A DNA stretch of 57,726 nucleotides from Acidimicrobiia bacterium (GCA_035651955.1 DASRES010000088.1:1-57726); one strand, 5' to 3'; counted from the first letter of the stretch, positions 1,936-8,834 are shown. Translations and numbers: made by a program. Notes: generated from the letters alone by a model not told the origin.

Positions 1936-2694
1936 TCAGCGTTTCAGGACGCGGCCGAGGAGAATGCACGTCTCGTAGAAGACGTACATGGGGACGGCCA
2001 TCGCGAAGAGTGAGTACGGGTCCTGGCTAGGGGTGATCACCGCGGCGAACAGCACGATGACGACGATCGCGATCCGCCGCCAGTGTCGGAGCTGCTCGGT
2101 CGAGAGCACGCGGGCGACGAGCAGGAACATCAGCAACACGGGAAACTCGAACGAGAGCCCGAACGCCACGATCATCAGCGAGACGAGCGACAGGTACTTG
2201 TCGGCGGTGAGGAACGGCTGGAGTTGGGGACCGCCGACACCGAGCAGGAACGCGAGCGCTTTGGTGAGGGTGAGAAGCGCGATCCACGCGCCGAGCGCAA
2301 AAAGTGCGACAGACGACACGATGAACGGGATTGCGTAGCGCTTCTCGCGACGGTCGAGCGCGGGGGTGACGAACCGCCAGAGTTGCCAGAGCCACACCGG
2401 AAGCGCGAGGACGATCCCGCCGTAGGTCGCGATCTGGAGCCTCACCTTGAACGCGTCGAGTGGTCCGGTGAAGATCAGCGCGTCGCGTTGGCCGTGTGTG
2501 GCGTGCTGGTAGTAGTGGACCAAGAAGCTGATGACCTCGCGCGAGAAGACGAACGTGACAACGGCGCCGATGGCCACCGCGACGATCGAGACGAAGAGCC
2601 GTCGCCGGAGCTCGCGCAGGTGGTCGAGTATCGGCATCGCGCCGCCCGGCTGTCGTCGCGCTCGATGACGGCGGAGTCCGAGCACGGCGGTCAT
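1936..2694 (-). CDS. tatC: Sec-independent protein translocase TatC
   Basis: A 252-residue integral membrane protein with six hydrophobic segments, the receptor subunit of the twin-arginine translocase that binds Tat signal peptides. Hallmarks are ILDHLRELRRRLF at the N-terminus, PLDAFKVRLQIATYGGIVLALP and LWRFVTPALDRREKR in the middle, GLSFEFPVLL with the conserved Glu, and ITPSQDPYSL near the last helices. The ATG at 2694 overlaps the preceding ORF by ATGA. The internal ATG at 2637 (MPILDHLRELRR) gives a more typical N-terminus and may be the true start. The tatA-type partners lie 3 kb away on the plus strand. Confidence 0.93.
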   Translation of the reverse strand: MTAVLGLRRHRARRQPGGAMPILDHLRELRRRLFVSIVAVAIGAVVTFVFSREVISFLVHYYQHATHGQRDALIFTGPLDAFKVRLQIATYGGIVLALPVWLWQLWRFVTPALDRREKRYAIPFIVSSVALFALGAWIALLTLTKALAFLLGVGGPQLQPFLTADKYLSLVSLMIVAFGLSFEFPVLLMFLLVARVLSTEQLRHWRRIAIVVIVLFAAVITPSQDPYSLFAMAVPMYVFYETCILLGRVLKR

Positions 2695-3095
2695 CGTGTG
2701 CGCTCCGCGTCGACGGGCGCCCGCAGCCGGTAGGTGCGCCCGCCCGGCAGGTTCGGCAGGTTGCCGTCGAGCAGGTAGCCGCGGCCGTCTGCCGCGCCGA
2801 CTGCGTGCACGACCGGTCGTGTGTCGGCGGGTTCGAGCTCGACGTCGAGCGCGCCCGACGCGTGTTGCGCGTCGTGTGCGCGCTGTGCGGTGTCGTCACT
2901 GTCGACAGCCGGATCGACGCGGTCGAGGCGTCGCGAGGGGGCACGTGTCGCGGCGGCGGCGTCGGCGAGGAGCAACCGCGTGGCGAGGAACGCGAGCGGG
3001 ACGTTCGCCGGCGCGAGTGAGCTGTGCCGGGGTCTCCACGGCGCGGTGGCGATCCGTGTCCAGGTCGGATCGTGCGACGCCGTGCGCTGTGTCAC
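2691..3095 (-). CDS. Possible anti-sigma (RskA C-terminal)-like fragment
   Basis: The C-terminal third reads LEPADTRPVVHAVG, then DGRGYLLDGNLPNLPGGRTY, resembling the end of RskA-type anti-sigma factors where a dGrGYLl-LP-LpaGrtYqLW motif is usual. The first 80 residues show no recognisable anti-sigma domain and no transmembrane helix. The ORF also stops right after the motif, so this is at best a truncated or diverged relative. Its TGA overlaps the tatC ATG at 2694, which would couple translation if both are expressed. No sigma factor gene is adjacent. The start is uncertain. Confidence 0.35.
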   Translation of the reverse strand: MTQRTASHDPTWTRIATAPWRPRHSSLAPANVPLAFLATRLLLADAAAATRAPSRRLDRVDPAVDSDDTAQRAHDAQHASGALDVELEPADTRPVVHAVGAADGRGYLLDGNLPNLPGGRTYRLRAPVDAERTR

Positions 3096-3222
3096 GGCAG
3101 ATGTTCGGACCGGCCACCGGGACGGGATGATCGCTCGTGCCGAAGCCCGTCGTGTCGCGAGACGTCATCCGGGTGCGGTTGCAGCTCCGAACAGGGGCCG
3201 AGTCGCACGGAACGGAGATGGC

Positions 3223-3609
3223 ATGCGACGCGCGGTTCGGTCCTCGTTGGTCGTCATCGCTGCGGTTGTGTTCGTGCTCGGCGTCGTCGGATGCAGCTCG
3301 AGCTCGCACAGCAAGGCGGCATCGGGTGCGACGTCCGAATCGACCACGCCGGCGGCGACGGGCACGACGATCGCGATCAAGAACTTCGAGTACTCGCCGA
3401 ACCCGTTGAAGGTGAAGGTCGGTGCGACCGTGACAGTGCGCAACACCGACAGCACCGACCACACCGTGACCGCGGACAAGGGCAGCTTCGACACCGGTCA
3501 CATCCACGGCGGCGGCACCGCGACGTTCACGGTGACCAAGGCGGGGACGTACCCCTACCACTGCGACATCCACCAGTTCATGAAGGGCGTCCTCGAGGTC
3601 ACCGGTTGA
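3223..3609 (+). CDS. Cupredoxin (plastocyanin/azurin-like) lipoprotein
   Basis: A 128-residue secreted copper protein. Residues 1-24 form a lipoprotein signal ending in VLGVVGC with lipobox Cys24, followed by a Ser/Thr-rich linker to about residue 48. The cupredoxin fold follows: IAIKNFEYSPNPLKVKVGATV, then the type I copper ligands His80 in DSTDHTV, Cys114 and His117 in YHCDIHQFM, and Met120. The predicted role is electron transfer or copper binding on the outer membrane face. The ATG was chosen because GGAG lies just upstream and the signal peptide begins there; the frame is open further upstream. It heads the plus-strand run of ferritin-like and TatA genes. Confidence 0.9.
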   Translation: MRRAVRSSLVVIAAVVFVLGVVGCSSSSHSKAASGATSESTTPAATGTTIAIKNFEYSPNPLKVKVGATVTVRNTDSTDHTVTADKGSFDTGHIHGGGTATFTVTKAGTYPYHCDIHQFMKGVLEVTG

Positions 3610-3643
3610 CCGGGACGCCACGTCCGCAAATGAGGGAGCGCGC

Positions 3644-4480
3644 ATGTCAGTTGACGAACGACGCCTCGGCGAGCTCGTCGAGGAGTCCGAGGATCTGCAG
3701 TCCGACGCGCTGCGCAACGCGCGGCCGGCGCTGGACGAGACCGTGGACCTCGCTCACGAGAGAGGCCGACACGACCTCGACGAGTCACGCCGGTTCGCCC
3801 ACGAGAGTCGCGGTCTGATCTCGCGTGGCGTGATGGGCGGCGGCGCGCTCGCGGCGGCCGGTTTCGGCGGGGCGTTGCTGACGCTGATGGCGCGCCCCGC
3901 GTTCGCGGACCAGTCGATGGACGTCCAGATGCTGCAAACCGCGGCGTCGATCGAGAACCTCGCCGTCGCGACCTACACCGCCGCGCTGGGTCTGCCGTTC
4001 GCGAGCTCGTTGCCGAAGGTCGTCCAGACGTTCGTGACGACGACCCGCCAGCAGCACACCGATCACGCGAAGGCGTTCAACGCCGCGGTCACCCAGTTGG
4101 GGGGCAAGGCCCAGGACCAGCCGGACCCGGTGCTGCTCGACGTCGTGAACAAGGCAAAGCCGGGGCTCACCGGCCCCGGCCCGCTCGTCGACCTCGCGAT
4201 CCAGCTCGAGACCGGCGCCGCGGAGACCTACGTCGCGGATGTCGGCGCGTACTCCGACACCAACGCCCGCAAGTTGACGGCGAGCATCATGGGCGTCGAG
4301 GCGCAACACGTCGCCGTGCTCAACGCGGTGAAGGCGCTCCTGTCGGCCGGACATCCCGAGTGGATCACGCTGCCGCCGCCTGTCGCGCAGCTTCCCGCCG
4401 CCGCGGGCAGCGTCGGGTTCCCCGACACGTTCATCAAGACGGACCAGGCCCGGCCTGCCAGTGAAGGAGCGGTGAAGTGA
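3644..4480 (+). CDS. Ferritin-like domain protein, copy 1 (signal lacks twin Arg)
   Basis: 278 residues. The N-terminal 55 residues are charged and helical (LVEESEDLQSDALRNARPAL), followed by a hydrophobic export-like segment GGGALAAAGFGGALLTLMA ending in PAFADQ. The rest is a ferritin-like four-helix domain of the PF13668 type: SIENLAVATYTAALGL, QQHTDHAKAFN, AIQLETGAAETYVADVG and IMGVEAQHVAVLNAV supply the expected Glu and His residues. The segment before the hydrophobic stretch is SRGLISRGVMGG, so the twin-arginine pair is missing although the paralogue next door has one. The substrate is unknown. Its TGA overlaps the next gene's GTG (GTGA, 4477-4480). Confidence 0.85.
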   Translation: MSVDERRLGELVEESEDLQSDALRNARPALDETVDLAHERGRHDLDESRRFAHESRGLISRGVMGGGALAAAGFGGALLTLMARPAFADQSMDVQMLQTAASIENLAVATYTAALGLPFASSLPKVVQTFVTTTRQQHTDHAKAFNAAVTQLGGKAQDQPDPVLLDVVNKAKPGLTGPGPLVDLAIQLETGAAETYVADVGAYSDTNARKLTASIMGVEAQHVAVLNAVKALLSAGHPEWITLPPPVAQLPAAAGSVGFPDTFIKTDQARPASEGAVK

Positions 4481-5307
4481 GCGCCCCGCACCACAACGAT
4501 CCCATCCAGATCTCCGAGGGCGAGCTCACCGCGATGACCGCGGAGCTCGAGGAGCGCCACCAGGAGAGCCTCCCGAAGATGCGCGCGGCGCTCGACGAGT
4601 GGGCCGAGCTGCGCAACGGCCTGCGCGCGGGTGTCGACGGGCTCACGTCCGCCGCCGCGACCCGGCGCGGCTTCCTGCTCGGCGCCGGGATCGCGCTCGG
4701 CGGCGTCGCGCTCGCCGCCTGTGGCGGCAGCAGCGGCAGCTCGAAGAAGAAGTCGGGCGGCACGACCCGGTCGACGGTCGCCGGCGGCGGAAGCCAGAAG
4801 CTCACCGGCGACCTCGCCGTTGTCGCGCTCGCAGCGGCGTTGGAGAACACGGCGGTTGCGACCTATCAGGCGGGGATCGACGCCGCGACGGCCGGCAAGC
4901 TCGGCACGGTCCCGCCCGCGGTCGTGACGTTCGCCCAGACCGCGCAGACCCAGCACAAGGCCCACGCCGACGCGTGGAACGCCGCGCTCGCGCAAGCGGG
5001 GAAGGCGAAGGTGACGGGTGTCGACCTGACCGTGAAGAACGGTGTCGTCGACCCCGCGTTCGCGAAGGTGACCGACGTCGCGGGACTCGCGACGCTCGCG
5101 TTGCAGCTCGAGAACGTCGCCGCGGCGACGTATCTGAGCGGCATCGGCGCGATCAGTGACCCGGGCGGGATCAAGACCGCGGCGTCGATCCAGCCCGTCG
5201 AGATGCAACACGCGGCGATCCTGAACTTCGTGCTGGGTCAGTACCCCGCGCCCGACACGTTCGCGAAGACCGACGGCGCCCGTACCACCACCGACCAGAT
5301 CGGCTGA
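4477..5307 (+). CDS. Ferritin-like domain lipoprotein with Tat signal, copy 2
   Basis: 276 residues and paralogous to the preceding gene. A helical, charged N-terminal part (about 1-60, ELEERHQESLPKMRAALDEW) precedes a Tat signal AATRRGFLLGAGIALGGVAL ending in a lipobox (LAAC). After a Ser/Gly/Lys linker comes the ferritin-like domain: ALENTAVATYQAG, TQHKAHADAWN, ALQLENVAAATYLSGIG and QPVEMQHAAILNFVLGQYP. It starts on GTG with AAGGAG seven bases upstream and overlaps copy 1 by four bases, so the pair is translationally coupled. The long n-region before the RR motif is unusual. Export would use the TatC/TatA proteins encoded around it. The biochemical function is unknown. Confidence 0.88.
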   Translation: MSAPHHNDPIQISEGELTAMTAELEERHQESLPKMRAALDEWAELRNGLRAGVDGLTSAAATRRGFLLGAGIALGGVALAACGGSSGSSKKKSGGTTRSTVAGGGSQKLTGDLAVVALAAALENTAVATYQAGIDAATAGKLGTVPPAVVTFAQTAQTQHKAHADAWNAALAQAGKAKVTGVDLTVKNGVVDPAFAKVTDVAGLATLALQLENVAAATYLSGIGAISDPGGIKTAASIQPVEMQHAAILNFVLGQYPAPDTFAKTDGARTTTDQIG

Positions 5308-5409
5308 ACACTTCCGCACCGGCCGGTCGGTTCCCTCGCCGATCGGTACCACGCGCGGGTGCCCGCGCCGATGCGTGTGCCCGCCCTCAACTCACGCCTG
5401 GAGGCAACC

Positions 5410-5586
5410 ATGCATCCCGTCTTCGCCGAGATCATCGGCCCCGACATCCTGATCGTCGTCGCGATCGTCGCGTTGTTGTTCGGCAGCACCCAGATCCCGA
5501 AGCTCGCCCGATCGCTCGGCGCCGCGTCCAAGGAGTTCCACGAAGGTGTTCGCCACGGTGCTACCGACGACACCCGCGCCGAGTAG
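5410..5586 (+). CDS. tatA: TatA-type twin-arginine translocase subunit (first of three)
   Basis: 58 residues. A short periplasmic stretch with GPDIL leads into one transmembrane helix (IVVAIVALLFGST), then the hinge and amphipathic helix QIPKLARSLGAASKEFHEG of TatA, and a short acidic tail. TatA oligomers form the protein-conducting assembly with TatC. The ATG at 5410 follows GGAGGCAACC, a good ribosome binding site; an upstream in-frame start adds residues with no family match. The second TatA-like gene starts 9 bp downstream. Together with tatC at 1936-2694 this locus could form a complete translocon. Confidence 0.9.
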   Translation: MHPVFAEIIGPDILIVVAIVALLFGSTQIPKLARSLGAASKEFHEGVRHGATDDTRAE

Positions 5587-5595
5587 GCGAACGGC

Positions 5596-5934
5596 ATGGT
5601 GCCGGGACTCGGCTTCGTGCATCTCGTTGTCGTCGCGATCGTCGCGCTCCTCGTACTCGGCCCCGACAAGCTTCCCGACCTCGCCCGACGCGCCGGGCAC
5701 GCCTACCGAGACCTCCAACGGTTGCGTGAGCACCTCCAACTCGACGTGGAGACGCTCCTCGGCGCGAACGACGACGCGCTGCTCGAGGATCACAGGGCGG
5801 ACGCGCCGACCGTCATCCGCCCGGCGGTAGCAGCTGCGACGAGTGAAGCCTCCCGCGGGGTCGCGCGGCCTGCCCGACACGTCCCGCCGCAAGCCATCCC
5901 GTTCGATCGGATTGCACGACGACAAGCCGTGTGA
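5596..5934 (+). CDS. TatA/TatB-type translocase subunit (second of three)
   Basis: 112 residues: MVPGLGFVHLVVVAIVALLV begins with a transmembrane helix, followed by the hinge LGPDKLPDLARRAGHAYRDLQRLREH and a long charged tail. The GPDKLPDLAR motif and the longer C-terminal region resemble TatB more than TatA, but the N-terminal polar residue usually diagnostic for TatB (Glu8) is not evident, so I leave the subtype open. It starts 9 bp after the first tatA and is followed by the third copy after a 31-bp gap. The C-terminal half (after residue 65) has no recognised motif. Confidence 0.8.
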   Translation: MVPGLGFVHLVVVAIVALLVLGPDKLPDLARRAGHAYRDLQRLREHLQLDVETLLGANDDALLEDHRADAPTVIRPAVAAATSEASRGVARPARHVPPQAIPFDRIARRQAV

Positions 5935-5965
5935 ACCACAAGCCTCGACTACGCCAGGAGAACTC

Positions 5966-6127
5966 ATGTTGGGTCTCGGAGCACCCGAGCTCCTGATCGT
6001 GCTGGCCGTCGTCGTGTTGCTCTTCGGCGCGACGCGACTGCCGAAGCTCGCACGATCGTTCGGGCAAGCGTCGACGGAGTTCGAGCGCGGTCGGCACGAC
6101 GGCGAATCGCGCCGGACCGAACTGTGA
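5966..6127 (+). CDS. tatA: TatA-type twin-arginine translocase subunit (third of three)
   Basis: 53 residues, very close in layout to the first copy: MLGLGAPELLIVLAVVVLLF, then GATRLPKLARSFGQASTEFE and a short charged tail. The ATG at 5966 has CAGGAG eight bases upstream, and upstream in-frame residues overlap the previous gene without family similarity. Two TatA copies plus one TatB-like protein could provide different translocon stoichiometries or substrate preferences; this is inference. The coding cluster ends here and is followed by degraded DNA. Confidence 0.88.
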   Translation: MLGLGAPELLIVLAVVVLLFGATRLPKLARSFGQASTEFERGRHDGESRRTEL

Positions 6128-7335: not shown

Positions 7336-8139
7336 TCACCGACGTGGCGGATGCCGCGGCTTCCCTGCGACGACGGCGTGCGCGGGCAGCGTGCGCGCGG
7401 CGACGGCTTCCGCGACGTCGACGAGCCGCGCGTTGTGCTCGCGGGCATAGCTGCGAAGCGCGGCGAACGCGTCGGGCATGTCGCGGCCCGTGTGCTCGGA
7501 CACGACACCCTTGGCCTGCTCGATGACCACGCGGCTGTTCAGCGCGTACTGCAGCTGCTCGGTCAGCAGTCGCGACTCGTCGGCGGCGCGGTGCTGCAGG
7601 ATCCCGATCGTCGCGACGTCGGCGAGCGCCTGCGCGATCAGGAGATCAGACGGCGCGAGGTCGTTCGCCTGGTGACGCAACAGGTTGAGTGAACCGATGA
7701 TCTGGTCGCGCAGGCGCAGCGGGACGGCGAACACCGACCCGAACCCGGCTCTCATCGCCTCGGGCGCGAAGACCGGCCAGCGCGCCGACGCGCCCGCCAG
7801 GTCGTCGCACGCGACCTGTCCCCCTGTGCGGTAGCACTCGAGACAGGGGCCTTCGTCGTGTTGGAGCTCGAAGAGCTCGAGGAGTCCCATCCGCTCGCTG
7901 GACGACGCGGCGACGTGGAGCGCGCCGGGCGTGTCGGCGAGCATGATGCCCGCCTCTGACAGGTCGAACAGGTCGACGCATCGGCCGGTCAGGACCGAGA
8001 GGTAGTCGAGTACGTCGAAGTCGGCAACCAGCGTGTCCGCGATGTCGACGAAGGTCTGTGCGAGGAGTGCATCGCGCTGTGGCATCGACGAAGGGCTCCG
8101 TTTGGGAGGTGCGGTCGCGTGCGTGACCCGCCTCGTCAC
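7336..8139 (-). CDS. GAF-ANTAR transcription antiterminator/regulator, copy 1
   Basis: 267 residues. A GAF sensor domain spans about 25-170 (LLAQTFVDIADTLVADFDVLDYL, DEGPCLECYRTGG, FAVPLRLRDQIIGSLNLL). An ANTAR RNA-binding domain follows at about 195-250 (LTEQLQYALNSRVVIEQAKGVV, then FAALRSYAREHNARLVDVAEAV). ANTAR proteins act by binding nascent RNA hairpins and preventing termination; the GAF domain senses an unidentified small ligand. The GTG start at 8139 overlaps the stop of the next GAF-ANTAR gene (GTGA), so the two are coupled and may function as a pair. The HDEGPCLECY motif is typical of actinobacterial GAF-ANTAR proteins. Confidence 0.9.
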   Translation of the reverse strand: MTRRVTHATAPPKRSPSSMPQRDALLAQTFVDIADTLVADFDVLDYLSVLTGRCVDLFDLSEAGIMLADTPGALHVAASSSERMGLLELFELQHDEGPCLECYRTGGQVACDDLAGASARWPVFAPEAMRAGFGSVFAVPLRLRDQIIGSLNLLRHQANDLAPSDLLIAQALADVATIGILQHRAADESRLLTEQLQYALNSRVVIEQAKGVVSEHTGRDMPDAFAALRSYAREHNARLVDVAEAVAARTLPAHAVVAGKPRHPPRR

Positions 8140-8834
8140 TCGATCCTGAGCTTGCGCGCGATGACATCGCGGGCGACGTCATCGACCGGGCGTCCCTCAG
8201 CGTAGGCATGCGCCCGGAGACGCACGAGGGCCTCCCCGACGCCCACGCCGAGCTGGGCCGCGACCATCCCGGACGCTTGATGAACCTCGATGCGCAAGGT
8301 CTCCGCGCGCTCGAGCTCGGGCGCGAGCGCGCCCGTCGCCGTGCCGGCCTGCAGTTCGAGGAGGGCATGGGTGACGACCTCGGCGACGATCCGCGCGTCG
8401 TCGTACTGCTGGGTGCGCAGGTCGCCCGGCTGGCCGCAATGCAGATCGAGTGCACCGAGACGGATCGTTCCCAGCTGCAACGGGAACGCGAACACGGCAC
8501 GGATGCCGGTGTCGATCAGCGCAGGCACGAGAGCAGGCCAGCGGTGAGCCGCGGCGTCGTCGAGATCGGGGACCGACACGGATCGGCCGGCTTCGTAGGC
8601 GTCGATGCAGGGTCCCTCACCCAACGTGAATTGCAGGTCCTCGAGCAGGGCCGCCGCGTGGTCGGACGAGCCCAGCGACCCGTGGTGACGGTCGGCGATC
8701 TTGAACATGATCCCGGCCCCCGTGGTCCCGAGGACGTGGGCACACGCGGCGCACGTCTGGCGACCGGGAGCCTGACCGGCCGACTGATCGGACGCGAGCC
8801 CGGCAACGACGTGTTCGAGCGCGCCGCGTTGCAC
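8136..8834 (-). CDS. GAF-ANTAR regulator, copy 2
   Basis: About 232 residues, paralogous to the downstream gene. The GAF domain has CAHVLGTTGAGIMFKIADRH, LGEGPCIDAYEAGRSV and VFAFPLQLGTIRLGALDLH. The ANTAR domain follows with LRIEVHQASGMVAAQLGVGV and ALVRLRAHAYAEGRPVDDVA. The frame is open beyond 9000, but that part overlaps the GGDEF gene. The GTG at 8834 is the first plausible start after the GGDEF stop, leaving a 14-bp gap, and is not certain. The order GGDEF, GAF-ANTAR, GAF-ANTAR on one strand with coupling suggests one operon linking c-di-GMP signalling to antitermination. Confidence 0.85.
   Translation of the reverse strand: MQRGALEHVVAGLASDQSAGQAPGRQTCAACAHVLGTTGAGIMFKIADRHHGSLGSSDHAAALLEDLQFTLGEGPCIDAYEAGRSVSVPDLDDAAAHRWPALVPALIDTGIRAVFAFPLQLGTIRLGALDLHCGQPGDLRTQQYDDARIVAEVVTHALLELQAGTATGALAPELERAETLRIEVHQASGMVAAQLGVGVGEALVRLRAHAYAEGRPVDDVARDVIARKLRIE

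Follow-up and report, generated by a model that had tools for sequence, protein, structure and literature searches.

The window, i.e. the whole stretch of 57,726 nucleotides analyzed here, from an actinobacterium of the class Acidimicrobiia, contains within 4.2 kb a tatC gene, a gene for a blue-copper (cupredoxin) lipoprotein, two coupled genes for ferritin-like proteins (copy 1 and copy 2) and three genes of the TatA/B type (Table 1). An earlier note had read this composition from the DNA, and Pfam searches confirmed all of these identities; genes were called with a simple codon-usage caller and checked with family HMMs. The genes for the cupredoxin (true start ATG 3223; lipobox GVVGC), copy 1, copy 2, TatA-1, TatB and TatA-2 are co-directional and separated by successive gaps of 34, -4, 102, 9 and 31 bases, with the genes for copy 1 and copy 2 overlapping in an ATGA and a strong ribosome site, GGAGG, preceding the ATG of tatA-1. 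Because the gaps are short, this operon-like run is likely transcribed as a single unit. tatC is divergent from it.

Table 1. Coordinates of the genes at the locus (positions in the window) and of two recurrent neighbors at related loci (positions at the locus named).
Feature	Position	Strand	Family match and remarks
tatC, second copy	1936..2637	minus	Pfam TatC, E 2e-63; ATG 2637 by alignment, ATG of a longer start at 2694
RskA-type anti-sigma remnant, C-terminal domain	2691..3095	minus	ATGA-coupled to tatC
Blue-copper (cupredoxin) lipoprotein	3223..3609	plus	Pfam Cupredoxin_1, E 3e-13
Ferritin_2 copy 1	3644..4480	plus	Pfam PF13668, E 4e-17
Ferritin_2 copy 2	4477..5307	plus	Pfam PF13668, E 4e-19
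tatA-1, type 'AEIIGPD...'	5410..5586	plus	Pfam PF02416, E 3e-9
tatB-like gene	5596..5934	plus	Pfam PF02416, E 3e-10
tatA-2	5966..6127	plus	Pfam PF02416, E 2e-11
'RCLRYMHDVE' protein	L103:13172-14008, L099:6778-7572, L113:7463-8248, L092:8630-9457, L065:3015-3800		no Pfam match (one tested)
'GYRHIPTIGPLF'-motif membrane protein	L103:9527-9973, L069:9034-9492, L080:13225-13590, L057:5670-6080		no Pfam match (two tested)

The three small tat genes, which the earlier note had left as one type, all match TatA_B_E and can be refined into a TatB-like gene flanked by two TatA-like genes. In a tree of the small Tat proteins the two types are separate, and the TatB-like protein groups with the TatB proteins of housekeeping operons, if on a long end branch (1.34). 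Together with a TatC that has the conserved positions, the locus encodes a TatABC set. The frame next to tatC is matched by an HMM of the RskA proteins of neighbors (E 2e-12 on the searched region; tblastn down to 1e-7). The sigma gene is absent beside this remnant, and about 20 relatives have complete ECF sigma and RskA genes close to the module. Given that the remnant is located directly before tatC, tatC appears to occupy a former regulator site. Paired GAF-domain-like regulator genes lie a few kb from the ferritin module in the window (7336-8708, minus strand) and at a related locus (L092:14089-15353), which may be chance.

Copy 1 (63 bits) and copy 2 (70 bits) both exceed the PF13668 cut-off of 24.7 bits and are predicted to adopt the four-helix fold of Ferritin_2 proteins. 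A PDB sequence search returned no convincing relative of either copy, and they were placed by fold comparison only: the predicted fold of copy 1 matches bacterioferritin with Z 17.8, copy 2 gave a match with Z 16, and the solved structure of RvFeMP-1 compares to the two with Z 16.9 and 14.5, respectively. Both domains carry the ligand pattern E / HxxH / E / ExxH; in copy 1 all six ligand-type residues (E104, H138, H141, E189, E219 and H222) are present in 49/49 aligned relatives, and the pattern is slightly looser in copy 2. RvFeMP-1 (RvY_06210) and Deinococcus DRB0118, the only biochemically studied PF13668 members that we found, are metabolite phosphatases (PMC11616004). RvFeMP-1 shares with copy 1 and copy 2 the Pfam family and the four-helix fold; however, its ligands are E51, E90xxH93, E132, D135 and D162 and, matched by helix order and not by alignment to the solved chain, Ala is found in the conserved set where D135 would fall. 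The lack of an IgG-like domain was also counted as a difference between RvFeMP-1 and the window pair. A phosphatase activity of the pair is, in our view, unlikely. A somewhat better but still tentative proposal is that the pair forms a surface metal-oxidising unit that hands electrons to the copper protein. This fits its partners and some of its hosts: the copper motif C-x2-H-x2-M is conserved in 51 of 55 linked cupredoxins, and species carrying copy 1 loci include Ferrithrix, Ferrimicrobium and Aciditerrimonas (species-genome scan). The literature consulted yielded nothing on Acidimicrobiia with a ferritin-like protein and a cupredoxin.

The two copies differ in their export signals. Copy 2 consists of a conserved N-terminal helix, a Tat motif (TRRGFL), a lipobox (LAAC) and the four-helix domain, and among its aligned relatives the RR is present in 49/49 and the lipobox is usual. 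Copy 1 consists of a conserved N-terminal helix, a hydrophobic segment, an AxA site (A88 in 49/49) and the four-helix domain, i.e. a degenerate signal without a proper RR. Over all loci, a strict RR was found in 11/81 copy 1 proteins versus 66/75 copy 2 proteins, and the copy 1 proteins that have it mostly fall in one deep clade. The signals described in the earlier note, RR and lipobox in copy 2 and a hydrophobic segment in copy 1, are thus present, but copy 1 of the window is not wholly RR-free: S-R-R-F occupies residues 48-51, about 16 residues ahead of the hydrophobic segment, and is not conserved in relatives. Adjoining the segment, copy 1 reads SRGLI where some relatives have RRxLL, so that in the window an RR in this position is found in copy 2 only, the one-partner pattern of hitchhiker pairs.

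Because copy 1 mostly lacks a strict RR while copy 2 keeps it, we suggest that the RR of copy 1 was probably lost where that of copy 2 sufficed for both proteins, and we infer, as the best reading, that copy 1 is co-exported with copy 2. Alternatively, copy 1 could be exported alone, by Sec or by means of its degenerate Tat signal, as the conservation of its hydrophobic segment and AxA site, the minority of copy 1 proteins with a strict RR and the R-R pair upstream of the signal-like segment in the window protein would allow. We consider this possible but doubtful given the usual loss of RR in copy 1 against its presence in 49/49 relatives of copy 2, a conserved 60-residue helix ahead of the hydrophobic segment that is unusual for a Sec signal, and the proximity of the two genes: copy 2 comes after copy 1 in nearly all loci long enough to show it, with an ATGA overlap in many. 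A helix before the signal is predicted in both copies (pLDDT above 90 in copy 2 and about 63-83 in copy 1), and in copy 1 its residues L11, S15 and D17 are found in 49/49 relatives. Since this helix would be cut off after export, it likely acts in the cytoplasm; our guess is that it pairs copy 1 with copy 2.

In the 4.1-Mb, 96% complete window genome, a search for another tat set, as proposed in the earlier note, identified tatB-tatC on contig C38 and lone tatA genes on C90 and C23. The tat genes of the window are therefore a second, complete set. The C38 tatC lies among genes for a DEAD-box helicase, WYL regulators and proteasome-accessory proteins (named by eye from translations), and a congener (G027) has its single tatC in the same kind of surroundings. 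In the tree, TatA-1 is similar to the lone TatA encoded on C23, and TatA-2 to that on C90 (65% identity), and the window thus has a counterpart of every tat gene type in the genome. The linked and housekeeping TatC proteins are 74% identical (dN 0.18, dS 0.60, dN/dS about 0.3); in the related genome G013 the corresponding dN and dS are 0.10 and 0.79, and dN/dS is 0.13-0.40 across four such pairs, pointing to purifying selection between the copies.

What would distinguish a second set from the first? One possibility is that TatC and TatA/B of the linked set have diverged in recognition and now accept only the ferritin pair, in the way that TatAdCd serves PhoD in Bacillus subtilis (PMC3068169), and the divergent TatB-like protein of the window agrees with this. 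However, the linked TatC retains 44/45 of the positions that are invariant in housekeeping TatCs, and a comparison of linked and housekeeping TatCs revealed five moderately enriched columns but no fixed signature of altered recognition. An altered TatC recognition surface was rejected on this ground and, given that other lineages have similar pairs without a linked set, we regard a diverged specificity as improbable. The retained positions and the lack of a fixed signature favor that the linked set is probably dedicated by co-expression rather than by a new specificity.

To follow the arrangement among relatives, 84,980 species genomes were scanned with the copy 1 alignment, yielding 80 loci, nearly all from Acidimicrobiia; within the class the pair is rare (copy 1 in 16/395 genomes). 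A cupredoxin is encoded within 4.5 kb of the pair in 55/81 loci and TatC in 11/81, against an expectation of about 0.6. With two tatC genes assumed per genome, chance linkage is about 0.7% per locus, and P is about 6e-10 for 10 or more TatC-linked loci if the loci are independent; because pair loci are related, this value is only a guide. The grouping that the earlier note had singled out hence exceeds chance. Two TatC genes were present in only three of the 58 genomes of the order (the window genome, G013 and G016), and a second TatC was present in 9/9 clearly linked genomes vs 3/57 others (Fisher 6e-9). In two of these others the linkage looks cut by a contig break: G417 has c2-tatA-tatC-tatB-cupredoxin on another contig, and G069 is readable in the same way. 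In G013, where contigs end within tatC, the joined reading is cupredoxin, tatA, tatB, tatC, copy 1, copy 2.

Two candidates were rejected as linked cases: G016, which has both TatCs in housekeeping-type contexts and is probably a mixed bin, and G427, in which the second tat set sits elsewhere. Two further cases are uncertain. In G062 (L092) the set lies 3.4 kb off, is divergent and has only TatC found; in a Pseudonocardiales MAG (G067, L133) tatC is split across contig ends. In the latter (L133/L235/L236) the ferritin pair is located between a TatB-like gene and tatA-tatC, and because the other tatC half adjoins a DEAD helicase gene, the neighbor may be the housekeeping tatAC itself. Two loci carry labels of other phyla, L080 (Acidobacteriota) and L136 (Saccharibacteria); given that their copy 1 sequences are near-identical to those of the Acidimicrobiia MAG loci L088 and L138, respectively, mislabelling of the records or mixing of the bins is probable.

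The neighborhood of ferritin pair, cupredoxin and Tat genes recurs in about six lineages, with nine or so differing gene arrangements among the 11 TatC-linked loci. One of the situations in which, according to the earlier note, its idea would fail, i.e. a single Tat set in the genome and an unconserved neighborhood, does not apply here. That tat genes and ferritin pair merely travel or landed together in the absence of a functional link would be compatible with a tyrosine-recombinase-like gene about 1.5 kb beyond the module at one locus (L065:8324-9466), a possible movement route, and with the genomes being mostly fragmented MAGs. We nevertheless consider such passive clustering very improbable, as the linkage recurs across distinct lineages that use different tat genes, the genes form same-strand runs and chance linkage per locus is low. 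About 70 of the 81 pair loci have no nearby tatC, and a general Tat system can therefore evidently export the pair. Isolates that carry the pair but no linked tat genes include Ferrithrix, Aciditerrimonas and Aquihabitans, whereas the linked state was seen in none of the isolates covered. Two neighbors recur as well. A protein of 260-300 aa ('RCLRYMHDVE...CYLRDL') adjoins the module in 13 loci, and a small membrane protein with a 'GYRHIPTIGPLF'-like motif recurs in tatC-linked loci (Table 1). The genome of L065 (G058) has four more lone 'AEILGPD'-type TatA genes (L225-L228 on contigs C467, C76, C506 and C161) and 10 TatA/B matches in all, an unusual expansion.

The ancestry of the linked tat genes was followed in a TatC tree of 57 rows, for which the linked group was set by position before the tree was built. 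Linked TatCs fall in six places, in most cases adjoining the housekeeping copy from the same genome or from a sister genome: that of G013 with its own housekeeping copy (100/99), that of the window with its own and the congener's copy (92/97), and with housekeeping TatCs also L065 (92/86), L069 and L103 (99/92), and L080, L088 and L092 (100/100); the placement of L099 and L113 is unsettled. A single clade of linked TatCs was rejected (AU p 9e-6), as was one of the window and G013 alone (6e-6), and on these tests together with the gene orders one linked TatC clade and one horizontally moved module were rejected. In the small-protein tree, the TatB proteins give the same picture for G013 (100/97) and L069/L103 (100/99) and, more weakly, for L080/L088 (94/86). 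On the copy 1 tree, the linkage label must change at least eight times. Because gene orders differ, the linked TatCs are not one clade and most group with the resident TatC, the pair appears to have acquired a second Tat set on about 5-6 independent occasions, and repeated duplication of resident tat genes into the pair locus is the simplest reading.

A different history would be one ancestral linkage that the housekeeping tat genes overwrote repeatedly through gene conversion, with trees that mimic many origins. Conversion would give the pairing of paralogues within genomes. Copy 1 of the window lies close to that of L065, and the linked TatA-1 proteins of the two form a group (95/92, over only 59 columns), suggesting that both may owe their linkage to a common root. 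On the other hand, gene order and strand vary among lineages, the window and G013, from one taxonomic order, hold copy 1 proteins of two deep clades, and TatB agrees with TatC. A sliding comparison of nucleotide identity detected no near-identical tract between paralogues (at most 0.86 identity per 90 bases), which makes recent gene conversion unlikely; it was rejected as an explanation, though ancient conversion may have occurred. In total, we judge a single overwritten linkage to be an unlikely history.

Combining these data, we think it rather probable that the locus is an export module in which a Tat set is made alongside its ferritin-pair cargo. In this model, (i) copy 1 and copy 2 would fold, probably load metal, and associate in the cytoplasm, (ii) the twin-arginine signal of copy 2 would carry the pair through the Tat translocase encoded next to it, (iii) outside the membrane, copy 2 would be lipid-anchored beside the blue-copper lipoprotein, to which electrons might pass, and copy 1 would be freed by cleavage after AxA, and (iv) the Tat set, a paralogue of the housekeeping set in or beside the ferritin operon, would be made when the cargo is made. 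Other lineages would have arrived at this coupling on their own, each with its resident tat genes. A bolder version, which we put forward tentatively, is that at least five Acidimicrobiia lineages, independently of each other, copied resident tat genes into the ferritin-pair locus and that both N-terminal helices act as a docking device in the cytoplasm, pairing the cargo before a co-made translocase transports it.

The earlier note regarded such grouping of Tat genes with substrates as unusual; exceptions to this are known. In B. subtilis, phoD-tatAdCd encodes a second Tat translocase beside its substrate and is co-induced by phosphate starvation (PMC3068169, PMC3827258). The window similarly has a substrate-linked set in addition to a housekeeping set, with the linkage to an RR-signal gene conserved in relatives. 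However, the Bacillus set is of the TatAC type without TatB and has a phosphodiesterase substrate, whereas the window set includes TatB; moreover, TatCd is one clade and the linked TatCs of Acidimicrobiia are not. In Listeria monocytogenes, fepCAB and tatAC adjoin and are both under Fur (PMC4481299), and in Bacilli a tatCy is linked to efeB, an iron-linked Tat substrate gene (PMC3827258). As in fepCAB/tatAC, the window tat genes adjoin a Tat substrate, but the Listeria cargo is a DyP-type peroxidase, an iron-binding lipoprotein and a permease, not two ferritin-like proteins with a cupredoxin. The MIC island of Methanococcus maripaludis encodes a two-subunit [NiFe] hydrogenase with a Tat signal on one subunit beside tatA/tatC (PMC6181927); it resembles the window in having the signal on only one of two partners with tat genes adjoining and differs in being archaeal, in its hydrogenase cargo and in being a single genomic island. 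In Tat hitchhiker complexes, such as the subunits of hydrogenase and formate dehydrogenase, one subunit is signaled and its partner carried (PMC10924467). The window pair likewise has the RR signal on one partner; unlike in the known complexes, its two proteins are paralogues from a single family, and the one carried along retains a signal-like segment. Several tatC genes occur in about 2% of species outside Bacilli (PMC3827258). As far as the literature consulted shows, substrate-linked Tat sets as such are known, and what is new here is the cargo and its repeated, apparently independent linking to Tat.

Work on the dedication of second Tat sets has centered on Bacilli, in which a single ancient duplication makes it hard to tell cause from history. 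With several apparently independent recruitments next to the same cargo, the question of dedication becomes a comparative one that can be addressed across unrelated tat genes. The pair is also a candidate for a natural two-protein Tat cargo in which the partners belong to one family and one of them mostly lacks RR. Moreover, for iron-cycling Acidimicrobiia such as Ferrithrix, Ferrimicrobium and Aciditerrimonas, the module suggests a yet uncharacterised metal system at the cell surface, made up of two ferritin-like proteins and a blue-copper protein. That the same arrangement was apparently built several times from a lineage's own export genes suggests that the pair and its copper protein may need an exporter supply of their own.
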